DNA of 35,250 bases from a virus: positions 1 through 35,250 of the IMG/VR virus record IMGVR_UViG_3300046011_001758, one strand, 5' to 3'. A program made the position numbers and the translations under genes. A model generated the notes under the pieces. The model was given only the letters and a program-made list of their open reading frames with translations. It ran no database searches and was not told the DNA's origin. The number at the start of each line of letters is the position of its first letter. Position 1 is the stretch's first letter. Positions 32,027 to 35,194 of the stretch are shown one piece after another.

Positions 32027-32227
32027 TTGACCCCCCAAGAGGCAGTAGCCCTTTTCGGCTCCCAGAACAAGATGGCAAAGGCGTTCGGCGTGACCCCTCC
32101 GGCGATCCTCCGGTGGCGTAAACAGGGCTATTTCCCTAGGGGACGGGAGTACCAACTACCCGCTGCCCTAGAAGCCCACAGGAAGGCGTATGGGGCCACC
32201 CCTAGCCTTGGGGAAGGGCAGGGATAG
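32027..32227 (+). CDS. Cro/YdaS-like helix-turn-helix regulator
   Basis: TTG start at 32027, led by AGGAG 8 nt upstream; 66 aa. EAVALFGSQNKMAKAFGVTPPAILRWRKQG (5-34) is a typical Cro/YdaS helix-turn-helix, followed by the short strand REYQLPAALEA. It probably binds the overlapping divergent promoters next to it and controls the early switch. The rare TTG codon suggests low expression. No CI-type repressor gene lies on the other side of the promoters, where temperate phages usually have one. The C-terminus (TPSLGEGQG) is disordered. Confidence 0.8.
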   Translation: MTPQEAVALFGSQNKMAKAFGVTPPAILRWRKQGYFPRGREYQLPAALEAHRKAYGATPSLGEGQG

Positions 32228-32266
32228 GATGGCTAGGAATCGCCCAGAACGGCCCAGAAAGCAAAA

Positions 32267-32294
32267 CCCCGACCTTTTGAGGGGCCGGGGCTTT
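32267..32294. terminator. Intrinsic terminator-like hairpin after the cro-like gene
   Basis: CCCCGACC (32267-32274) pairs with GGCCGGGG (32283-32290) with one A-C mismatch around an 8-nt loop, followed on the + strand by CTTT. On the minus strand the stem is followed by TTTTGCTTT, so it may work in both directions. The position corresponds to lambda tR1. Confidence 0.6.
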
Positions 32295-32330
32295 ACTCCG
32301 CTACGGGGTGCGGATATGATCCCCTACGGG

Positions 32331-32384
32331 GATAGGAGATTGATGTATGGTAAAGCCGACCTTTACCTCCGTCAATCCCCTATC
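32331..32384 (+). ncRNA. Nested 54-nt RNA hairpin (candidate structured RNA)
   Basis: Outer stem GATAGGAGATTGA (32331-32343) with TCAATCCCCTATC (32372-32384): 12 pairs and one A-C mismatch. A 5x4 internal loop follows, then inner stem GGTAAAG (32349-32355) with CTTTACC (32361-32367), 7 pairs, and a 5-nt loop. The start of the outer stem also pairs in the competing hairpin ATCCCC/GGGGAT (32319-32333), so two alternative folds exist. Confidence 0.55.
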
Positions 32385-32470
32385 TTCTCGGCTCATCTGG
32401 TCGGGGAAACCACGCGCAGACAGGGCTTAAACCTAGACCGGGGTAGCGGGATTCTAGGCGCGCAGCACTA

Positions 32471-32518
32471 GTGAGGAAGCGCGAACCGCATCGAGGAAAC
32501 TCGAGAAAAGTCGCTCAC
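32471..32518 (+). ncRNA. Hairpin with GAAA tetraloop (candidate structured RNA)
   Basis: Apical stem TCGAG (32491-32495) and CTCGA (32500-32504) close a GAAA (GNRA) tetraloop. Outside it CGA (32482-32484) pairs with TCG (32511-32513) across a 6x6 internal loop, and GTGAG (32471-32475) pairs with CTCAC (32514-32518). Coaxial pairing plus a GNRA loop is a typical sign of a folded RNA. Confidence 0.5.
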
Positions 32519-32543
32519 AGCAGGATGGCTCCGAAGGGCATAT

Positions 32544-32584
32544 CTGCGTGATTCGTGTAGGCGTACTCCGTCTACACCACGCAG
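32544..32584 (+). ncRNA. Long interrupted hairpin (candidate structured RNA or operator)
   Basis: CTGCGTG (32544-32550) and GTGTAG (32555-32560) pair with CACGCAG (32578-32584) and CTACAC (32572-32577), giving 13 pairs with a 4-nt bulge ATTC on the 5' arm and an 11-nt loop. The hairpin is flanked by direct repeats AAGGGCATA at 32534-32542 and 32594-32602. Confidence 0.6.
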
Positions 32585-32653
32585 AATCCACCAAAGGGCA
32601 TACGGACTGTATATACACTTTAACGGTAGATATTCACATATACGGGGAATTAC

Positions 32654-32833
32654 ATGACACAGACAGAAGCATTTGAATCCGCACTCTGGTTAGCAATCAC
32701 CGCTGACTCGCAAGAACGAACCGACCGCGCATTGGCTCTCGCTAGCGAGATCGGTTTTAATCTCACCGACGAACAAGTCAGTCAGTCGATGGCGATGATC
32801 GAAAAAAGATTGGAGGCGCGACATGAGCATTGA
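32654..32833 (+). CDS. Very small helical protein (59 aa) upstream of the replication-like gene
   Basis: ATG at 32654 led by GGGGAA; TGA at 32831-32833. The product is an amphipathic helical protein (MTQTEAFESALWLAITADSQ, EQVSQSMAMIEKRLEARHEH). It overlaps the next start by 11 nt and the ribosome site for that gene (GGAGG) lies inside it. It is just short enough to be missed by usual length cut-offs. The codon pattern looks coding. Function unknown; perhaps a replication accessory factor. Confidence 0.6.
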   Translation: MTQTEAFESALWLAITADSQERTDRALALASEIGFNLTDEQVSQSMAMIEKRLEARHEH

Positions 32834-33386
32834 GCATATCGAGGGCTTGGACAAAGATGCTTGGGAACGATGGGTCGCCTATCGCAAAGCAATCCGCAAG
32901 CCTCTAAAAGACGTATCGCTCCACGCTGCTGCGTTAAAACTTTCGAAGTATGGCGCGGATCAAGCGGAGGTGGTGAACCAGTCGGTTTCTAATCAATGGC
33001 AGGGACTATTCGAACTGCGCAAAGGCAAGGCCGACCCGACGGAGCCGAAACAGAAAACCGACAAACAGAAAGCCGCCGATCAGCAGATATTCGAGATCAA
33101 CGAAGGCAAGAGTCAGAAATACTGGGATAGCGTCGAAGGCAACCCGATCAGTATGCTGCGACTCTGCGATGCGCTGCTCGCTCGCTATACCCAACGAGCC
33201 GGTGACCCTGACATCCCCGAGAGAATCCAATGGCTGAAAGGCCGTGTAGGGGATTTCATTAGACAGGCTGACCCGAAAGAGGTTCTCGGTGACCCACATA
33301 TTAAATCAATGGTCTGGCACCTCTTCGGCGAGCGAGGCATCGCTAGGCTATCCGGAGGAGGGGCCACCCCTCAAACAGTCCAATAG
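32823..33386 (+). CDS. Replication-protein-like (C-terminal O/DnaD-type domain)
   Basis: This 187-aa protein starts at an ATG inside the previous gene, with GGAGG in front. DKDAWERWVAYRKAIRKPLKDVS ... LHAAALKLSKYG ... QSVSNQWQGLFELRK (9-67) is the helical pattern found at the end of many phage O-type initiators and helicase-loader-like proteins, but there is no N-terminal winged-helix origin-binding domain here. After a Lys/Gln-rich linker comes a second helical block (PISMLRLCDALLARYTQRAGD ... WHLFGERG). It may load host helicase at the nearby noncoding region; inferred. Confidence 0.55.
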   Translation: MSIEHIEGLDKDAWERWVAYRKAIRKPLKDVSLHAAALKLSKYGADQAEVVNQSVSNQWQGLFELRKGKADPTEPKQKTDKQKAADQQIFEINEGKSQKYWDSVEGNPISMLRLCDALLARYTQRAGDPDIPERIQWLKGRVGDFIRQADPKEVLGDPHIKSMVWHLFGERGIARLSGGGATPQTVQ

Positions 33387-33478: not shown

Positions 33479-33820
33479 ATGCGCCACGCCGCCCGACGCG
33501 ATTTGAACGACAGCGAGATCACGAAAGCCGTGAGAGACGCAGGATTCTCCGTAATCGACTACACCAAAGCCGGAATCGGAATACCCGACAAACTCGCTTT
33601 AAGGCTATTACCGCAACCAGCCGAGTACGACGGCCCTAACTACTTTATCTGTTGGCTAGAGATCAAGAGCAAGAACGGCAAACTCTCCGAAACGCAGCAG
33701 TTAGCCAAGAACGTCTGGGAGCCTCGCGGGGAGTGGATCGAGGCTAGGGAGCCAGAACAAACCGTTAGGGATTTGGTCGAGCGGTACGAGTTGAAGATCA
33801 AGCAGGAGTATATGCGGTGA
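33479..33820 (+). CDS. VRR-NUC-type nuclease
   Basis: This 113-aa protein has the family pattern: MRHAARRDLNDSEITKAVRD, GIGIPDKLAL (Asp37), WLEIKSKNGKLSETQQL (Glu61, Lys63, Gln73/74). These are the D-(E-x-K)-Q catalytic elements of VRR-NUC endonucleases, which cut branched DNA such as Holliday junctions. It is likely used in phage recombination or resolving replication intermediates before packaging. The intervening segment 33387-33478 holds no convincing gene. Its stop overlaps the next GTG start (GTGA). Confidence 0.85.
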   Translation: MRHAARRDLNDSEITKAVRDAGFSVIDYTKAGIGIPDKLALRLLPQPAEYDGPNYFICWLEIKSKNGKLSETQQLAKNVWEPRGEWIEAREPEQTVRDLVERYELKIKQEYMR

Positions 33821-35167: not shown

Positions 35168-35174
35168 TCTGTAG

Positions 35175-35194
35175 TTATGCACACGTTATGCACA
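35175..35194 (+). repeat. Tandem 9-mers TTATGCACA (DnaA-box-like)
   Basis: TTATGCACA occurs at 35175-35183 and 35186-35194, 11 bp apart, one helical turn. It fits the relaxed DnaA-box pattern TTWTNCACA exactly and differs from the strict box TTATCCACA at one base. It may be an origin element, or iterons for the terminase small subunit or the ParB-like protein. Confidence 0.6.

Follow-up and report, generated by a model that had tools for sequence, protein, structure and literature searches.

The window analysed here is a viral record of 35,250 bases with a lambda-like gene layout of the siphovirus type, including terminase, portal, head and tail genes and a leftward operon in which Erf, SSB-like and NinB-like genes lie together; no tRNA or tmRNA gene was found in it. 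A Cro-like repressor gene (32027–32227, plus strand; Pfam P22_Cro, 3.8e-08; phrog_409, transcriptional regulator) forms the upstream boundary of the module described below and is followed by an interval containing a structured RNA and then by the early rightward operon, which encodes an O-like protein, a protein with a weak VRR-NUC match (33479–33820, plus strand; Pfam VRR_NUC, 0.0019) and a Q-like antiterminator. The O-like protein (187 residues; 32823–33386, plus strand), hereafter the partner, is linked to the RNA and consists of the C-terminal part of an O-like initiator only (phrog_678, positions 221–318 of 346; phrog_6451, positions 178–248 of 272). A small ORF of 59 residues (32654–32833, plus strand), to which no function was assigned, lies between the RNA and the partner and is missing from this place in many relatives. 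The window contains no tandem arrays apart from two units at 35174, which are tandem copies of the DnaA-box-like TTATGCACA spaced 11 bp apart (35174–35194; 35175/35186). The same tandem pair is seen near position 46 of two further contigs (L009 and L027), and in all three contigs it lies about 50 bases from the contig end; this end may be a physical (cos) end and the repeats may be terminase or DnaA sites.

A sigma-70-like promoter (TTTACT-17-TATGAT; 32292–32320, plus strand), recognized by consensus only, precedes the RNA. A promoter-like site scoring at least 8/12 is present in all 95 distinct upstream regions of the RNA family and occupies one position in 83 of these. The −35 box is abutted by a hairpin at 32267–32291 that the original prediction had described as an intrinsic terminator-like stem. 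Folding of both strands retained the hairpin but located the U-tract on the minus strand and not on the plus strand (9 bp followed by UUUUGCUUU on the minus strand, z = −2.5; plus strand, z = −0.96), so that the stem would terminate leftward transcription. Such a hairpin adjoins the −35 box in 83 of the 95 distinct type I upstream regions (type I being the RNA type of the window), with a T-rich minus-strand tail in 70 of the 95. A leftward promoter-like sequence (TTGACG-17-TACCAT; 32347–32375, minus strand) is placed as in lambda pO/oop, and 94 of 95 type I upstream regions retain its −35 element (TGTCAA/CGTCAA on the plus strand; TTGACR), as do 19 of 20 upstream regions of the DUF1376 loci described below. 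The check for an antisense RNA of the RNA I type showed these two leftward elements, promoter-like and terminator-like, around the 5′ end of the RNA. Together, the TTGACR-17 site and the hairpin (32258–32375, minus strand) would yield a short leftward RNA resembling lambda OOP across the forward promoter. The RNA begins with a leader hairpin, P0 (32329–32386, plus strand; z = −4.9), which had been noticed as a nested 54-nt hairpin and is common to all module types, comparable hairpins being present at type I and type II loci and at those with DUF1376. Two hairpins in this region (32319–32333 and 32331–32384) do share bases, but the proposed competition between them in one transcript is unlikely because the first spans the −10 box and the start. 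No intrinsic terminator was found directly after the RNA, and the distance from the RNA to the partner gene ranges among loci from ∼20 nt to ∼1 kb, with intervening ORFs.

The structured RNA spans positions 32326–32602, and its type I core (32387–32532, plus strand) is matched by covariance model R1 with 161 bits (E = 2.6e-50) as a single copy in the window. The core, all of it on the plus strand, starts with hairpin P1 (32392–32425), which carries the loop GGUCGGGGAAACCACGCG and shows compensatory changes in three of six pairs. P2 (32432–32437/32453–32458) is paired in 100% of sequences, with changes on both sides in all six pairs, and P3 (32459–32463/32479–32483) is paired in 84 of 84 sequences, with two such pairs. 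The helix PK1 (32446–32449/32486–32489) crosses P2 and P3 to form a pseudoknot that is paired in 84/84 sequences, with both-side changes in three of four pairs (variants GCGG/CCGC, GCCA/TGGC, GTGG/CCAC, GTCA/TGAC and GACA/TGTC). A second pseudoknot arises from P5 (32471–32475/32514–32518), which crosses P3 and is likewise paired in all 84 sequences, three pairs having changed on both sides. P4 (32491–32504) is a hairpin with a GAAA loop (94.6% paired; both-side changes in five of five pairs). This GAAA hairpin and the longer-range pairing around it had been described beforehand and are real, the outer helix turning out to be a pseudoknot helix in the relatives; the other pseudoknot had been overlooked.

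The fold was assessed by counting the named pairs in 84 aligned distinct sequences, with 500 shuffles as a control. Standard pairs occupy 98.2% of the cells over 43 pairs (83.6% when shuffled), and 596 cells are compensatory with changes on both sides compared with 183 in the shuffled data, a number reached in none of the 500 shuffles, although these cell counts are inflated by kinship among the 84 sequences. Both-side changes affect 27 of the 43 pairs, and the signal is lost when the pairing partners are slid. The occurrence of several pair types at one position makes a chance origin of the fold untenable despite the inflation by relatedness. G-U pairs outnumber A-C pairs by 143 to 25 (66 to 25 without the near-constant pair 205/218, and 81 to 6 in helix P6 alone), which identifies the plus strand as the RNA; in the inner helices P2, P3 and PK1, hardly any G-U intermediates accompany the variation. 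A coding RNA was considered and rejected: the 93-codon frame at 32190–32471 has no codon periodicity (variable columns 16/28, 16/29 and 15/29 by codon position) and is broken by one-base indels between relatives. Thus, a conserved plus-strand RNA with two pseudoknots is real. All of the hairpins named in the original prediction are present in the sequence, and its view that no credible gene covers the interval and that a new structured RNA lies there holds strongly, given the massive covariation and the lack of an Rfam match even under relaxed thresholds. The two outcomes that would have refuted the prediction, missing compensatory changes and a conserved coding frame, were both looked for and not observed.

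The 3′ domain contains two helices that compete for one strand. P6 pairs arm A (32520–32525) with strand B (32543–32547; 95.5% paired, two pairs with both-side changes), and P7 pairs strand B (32544–32550) with arm C (32578–32584; 99.3% paired, both-side changes in five of seven pairs) and is capped by P8 (32559–32563/32569–32573), all on the plus strand. P6 and P7 are mutually exclusive through strand B, yet both are kept with both-side changes. The bulged hairpin at 32543–32587 described in the original prediction is real (z = −6.1) and is indeed flanked by direct repeats: R(A), AAGGGCATA at 32534–32542, is preceded by GGCUCC and R(C), again AAGGGCATA at 32594–32602, by CACCA. The repeat varies among loci but matches within a locus. 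The mean R(A)/R(C) identity of 22 distinct pairs is 6.6/9, compared with 4.9 for shuffled pairs (top shuffle 6.1); this count treated register shifts of one base, and three pairs that had been anchored wrongly, as mismatches. Internally matching repeats among the cassettes include TCAGTCATC, AAGGTCATA, AAGGGCATA, ACAGTCATA, TCAGGTTTG, CGGTCTGAAGT, AGCGTGTGCA and CGGGCAGGT; those of L133 (CGGTCTGAAGT), L129 (AGCGTGTGCA) and L132 (CGGGCAGGT) are unrelated to one another. These three divergent cassettes (L133, 2900–3000; L129, 2885–2990; L132, 2870–2960) preserve the frame (GGCUCC)-R … (CACC/ACCA)-R around entirely different R sequences. The partner protein is unlikely to read R, as the L129 and L132 partners are 97% identical and their repeats are unrelated. 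No conserved complement of the 9-nt repeats was found elsewhere in the sequence examined.

A search with the downstream O-like protein retrieved seven relatives; a pattern made from the conserved stretch matched 20 contigs and a broader pattern at least 119, so that the family extends to well over 100 viral contigs. The core is nearly constant among loci with differing upstream genes, and model R1 finds exactly one copy in each of 20 near-complete contigs of 32–38 kb. The window has no match in Rfam 15 at the gathering score, six loci searched at E ≤ 1 gave only a tRNA elsewhere, and in the relaxed search the window interval matched only weakly and only on the minus strand, across the terminator-like hairpin. 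A DNA search of GenBank phages and a pattern scan of the host genomes searched gave no match to the RNA, and no comparable phage origin RNA was described in the literature that we searched. This is a new RNA family. In the phage collection, only one record matches at least 80% of the partner: MW202691.1 (L129), the GenBank genome of a phage from Manatee Spring, which also has a related cassette and encodes a protein annotated as VRR-Nuc; its O-like partner is truncated. Several contigs (those of L029, L121, L094, L053, L031, L117 and L074) end within or near the RNA more often than expected; their end offsets differ, and these ends are therefore probably assembly breaks at a sequence common to many phages and not genome ends.

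At nearly every RNA locus an O-like protein, or a shorter one with its C-terminal domain, comes after the RNA. The partner matches only the C-terminal part of the O-like profiles, and positions 1–114 of the primosomal family phrog_6451 match a DUF1376 protein of one relative (L193), which makes the partner the C-terminal part of a two-part initiator. A fusion of the two parts was sought in L193 and was not found, the locus having two adjacent ORFs. A complete O with its N-terminal domain is present in Cronobacter phage phiES15 (259 residues). The predicted fold of the partner is helical (pLDDT 80); comparison with the PDB gave no significant structural match and the sequence search gave nothing. 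From its family annotation, we infer that the partner may load the host DnaB helicase.

The relationship between the RNA and the partner was followed with a search by the partner alone, which gave 226 relatives. The best 80 of these 226 were kept and yielded 79 new loci, comprising 51 with a type I RNA, 23 with a second RNA type that carries a G-tract (type II, including hybrids such as L133), four with too little upstream DNA and one without an RNA. The sole RNA-less locus among the 75 with enough upstream DNA is L193, which carries at the RNA site a gene for a DUF1376 protein of 165 residues (PF07120, 2.8e-18). A reverse search with this protein gave 33 loci, all 33 with the partner adjoining; R1 and the G-tract pattern were each found in none of the 33. 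In whole contigs, DUF1376 is present in nine of nine with the swap, none of 11 of type I and none of five others, and R1 is absent from all 14 swap and type II/hybrid whole contigs. The forward promoter and a P0-like hairpin are mostly kept in the DUF1376 loci, which indicates that the cassette alone was exchanged. The partners of L193 (DUF1376) and L125 (RNA) are 88% identical, with identical C-terminal 70 residues. A tree of the partner domain requires at least seven changes between RNA and DUF1376 compared with 19 for shuffled labels, a rough number because the domain is short, the tree weakly resolved and many loci closely related. The RNA has thus been swapped with a DUF1376 initiator-type gene at one site, between a like promoter and leader and a like partner, and also with the second RNA type.

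The DUF1376 gene contains repeats in 34 of 34 loci, as 11-bp units of the GCGAACGCA type and/or AT-rich units of the CCAATAACC type; the arrangement of 11-bp ATGCGAACGCA units followed by AT-rich CCAATAACC units is clearest in L244. We infer that these repeats are iterons, the annotation of DUF1376 itself being unknown or primosomal only, and they resemble an iteron origin accompanied by an unwinding element, such as lambda has. Neither such repeats nor DUF1376 occur in any RNA-bearing locus examined. The type II RNA is a second structured RNA at the identical site in other phages (L176, 2685–2875; L150, 1513–1687; L005, 2276–2471; and relatives), containing UACGGGCAU as well as a hairpin that ends in GGGGGUUAGGGGGG. 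Its alignment (A7) shows compensatory changes in 18 of 45 predicted pairs, and Rfam returned nothing credible for the type II loci. ORFs resembling homing endonucleases or methyltransferases, recognized by eye, lie in the gap from the RNA to the partner gene, chiefly at type II loci: putative HNH ORFs in L001 (2070–2565), L005, L137, L145 and L184, probable endonucleases in L154, L163 and L185 and a probable methyltransferase in L189.

The window has no match to a DnaB-type helicase (DnaB_C), to the N-terminal domain of lambda O (Phage_rep_O) or to DUF1376, which the identical search does find in relatives, and no further initiator was found among the window genes scanned. No lambda-type iterons occur in or near the O gene, the only tandem array in the window being the two units at 35174. 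If the DUF1376 cassette brings an initiator and an origin, the RNA cassette, which has no such protein and no iterons, would have to supply the origin function, and either the RNA or the DNA encoding it would be the origin; this is the straightforward reading of an exchange that runs both ways. We therefore favor, with a probability of roughly 0.6, the reading of the interval as an RNA-built replication-origin or initiator module that replaces an initiator protein and its iterons. Of the three functions offered originally, the origin is favored by the DUF1376 swap, antitermination is disfavored by the single copy per genome and by the relatives without the RNA, and switching is a possible role of the 3′ domain with its two exclusive helices. 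Several observations count against an origin: an AT-rich opening element is not evidently conserved 3′ of the RNA, type I lacks a long G-tract of the type II kind, and the tandem DnaA-box-like pair lies elsewhere, though near contig ends. Furthermore, a leader RNA serving only cassette-specific expression would be exchanged too.

In the RNA-based origin that we propose, the promoter just 3′ of cro would transcribe the leader hairpin and the 210-nt double-pseudoknotted RNA, and the transcript would end near the gene for the C-terminal-only O-like protein. Most likely, the folded transcript would stay on its template as an RNA–DNA hybrid, providing a primer and an opened strand, and the partner would bring the host DnaB helicase. 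More speculatively, the RNA might acquire a 3′ end at R(A) that then pairs with the template at R(C), its release being timed by the exchange between P6 and P7. Hepadnaviruses move a primer between two short direct repeats, DR1 and DR2; two short identical direct repeats would in the same way let an RNA primer move here, as an analogy only, since no reverse transcription is involved. If only the match of R(A) and R(C) were needed, cassettes would carry different, internally matching repeats. In the complete version, the folded transcript itself would act as initiator: under P6/P7 control, its 3′ end would be transferred from R(A) to the template at R(C) and prime DNA synthesis there, and the two copies of R would have to match but could have any sequence. 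This version is tentative and, taken as a whole, doubtful.

Other readings explain parts of these data. A leader RNA or switch acting in cis on expression of the replication operon, with P6 and P7 as its two states and without origin function, would account for an RNA 5′ of the operon with its own promoter and for the retention of both exclusive helices. It is nevertheless unlikely, because there is no intrinsic terminator directly next to the RNA, the distance to the partner varies from ∼20 nt to ∼1 kb with other ORFs inside, and it gives no reason for the matching repeats; that relatives with a like promoter and partner manage without the RNA when DUF1376 is present would also go unexplained. 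The site after cro in the early right operon, the conserved single-stranded loops and the promoter of its own would equally suit an antitermination RNA that acts by modifying RNA polymerase, like put of HK022, which is also a structured RNA of early phage transcripts. The put RNA is about one third the size of the type I core. Sites of the put type would be expected in both early operons, but the type I RNA is single-copy, with none in the left operon, and besides being much larger it is pseudoknotted and swapped with an initiator gene. Some relatives lack it although their promoter, leader hairpin and downstream partner are retained, and we consider an antitermination role quite improbable.

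The almost complete lack of G-U intermediates in P2, P3 and PK1 could point to folded single-stranded DNA as the functional form, acting without a transcript as a single-strand initiation or primosome-assembly site, which would likewise be an origin function. Against this stand the promoter-like site in 95/95 upstream regions and the excess of G-U over A-C pairs elsewhere, strongly so in P6, and we regard it as very unlikely. We give least credence to a self-processing or mobile RNA cassette, a ribozyme or homing element that merely happens to be at the site. Exchange of the cassettes, the homing-nuclease-like ORFs beside type II RNAs and flanking repeats reminiscent of insertion sites would fit such an element, but the RNA is present at nearly every partner locus and is exchanged for an initiator gene instead of being lost, it matches no Rfam ribozyme or intron, and the repeats stay matched across much divergence.

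The proposed RNA-based origin has partial counterparts in known systems. Lambda-like phages mark their origin by an initiator protein that binds iterons. In lambda, the origin lies inside O, with the iterons next to an A+T-rich stretch (PMC5043065), and transcription running rightward across the origin is important, as is a leftward promoter convergent with it (PMC3985674). The module resembles lambda in its map position after cro, its O-like partner, rightward transcription through the region and the convergent pO-like site, but where lambda has its iterons and the DNA-binding N-terminal part of O, the window has the RNA. The plasmid ColE1 encodes no initiator and uses the noncoding RNA II (PMC5043065). 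The functional analogy with the phage module lies in the promoter (by consensus only), the long structured noncoding RNA and the absence of a repeat-binding initiator protein (PMC5043065); the phage RNA differs in being ∼280 nt long compared with 550, in having no Rfam relation to RNA II and in its two pseudoknots, paired matching repeats and dedicated partner protein. The RNA–DNA hybrid, RNase H cleavage and Pol I extension of ColE1 would apply to the phage RNA by analogy only. We know of no need for a conserved folded RNA at the origins of T4, whereas the RNA described here is both conserved and folded. For the T4 R-loop origins, the proposed principle is that a transcript annealed at the origin serves as the leading-strand primer (PMC3016281).

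As a working principle, the module would add a new variant to the RNA-dependent origins, and priming by matched repeats, should it prove real, would count as new in kind. Metagenomes commonly contain the family, but Rfam lacks it. The RNA and the DUF1376 gene form a natural cassette pair at one locus, and mutations could be aimed directly at the double pseudoknot, at the mutually exclusive helices and at the co-changing repeats. If the proposed RNA-based origin is correct, the choice between RNA and protein as the replication initiator would be open and modular in living phages.
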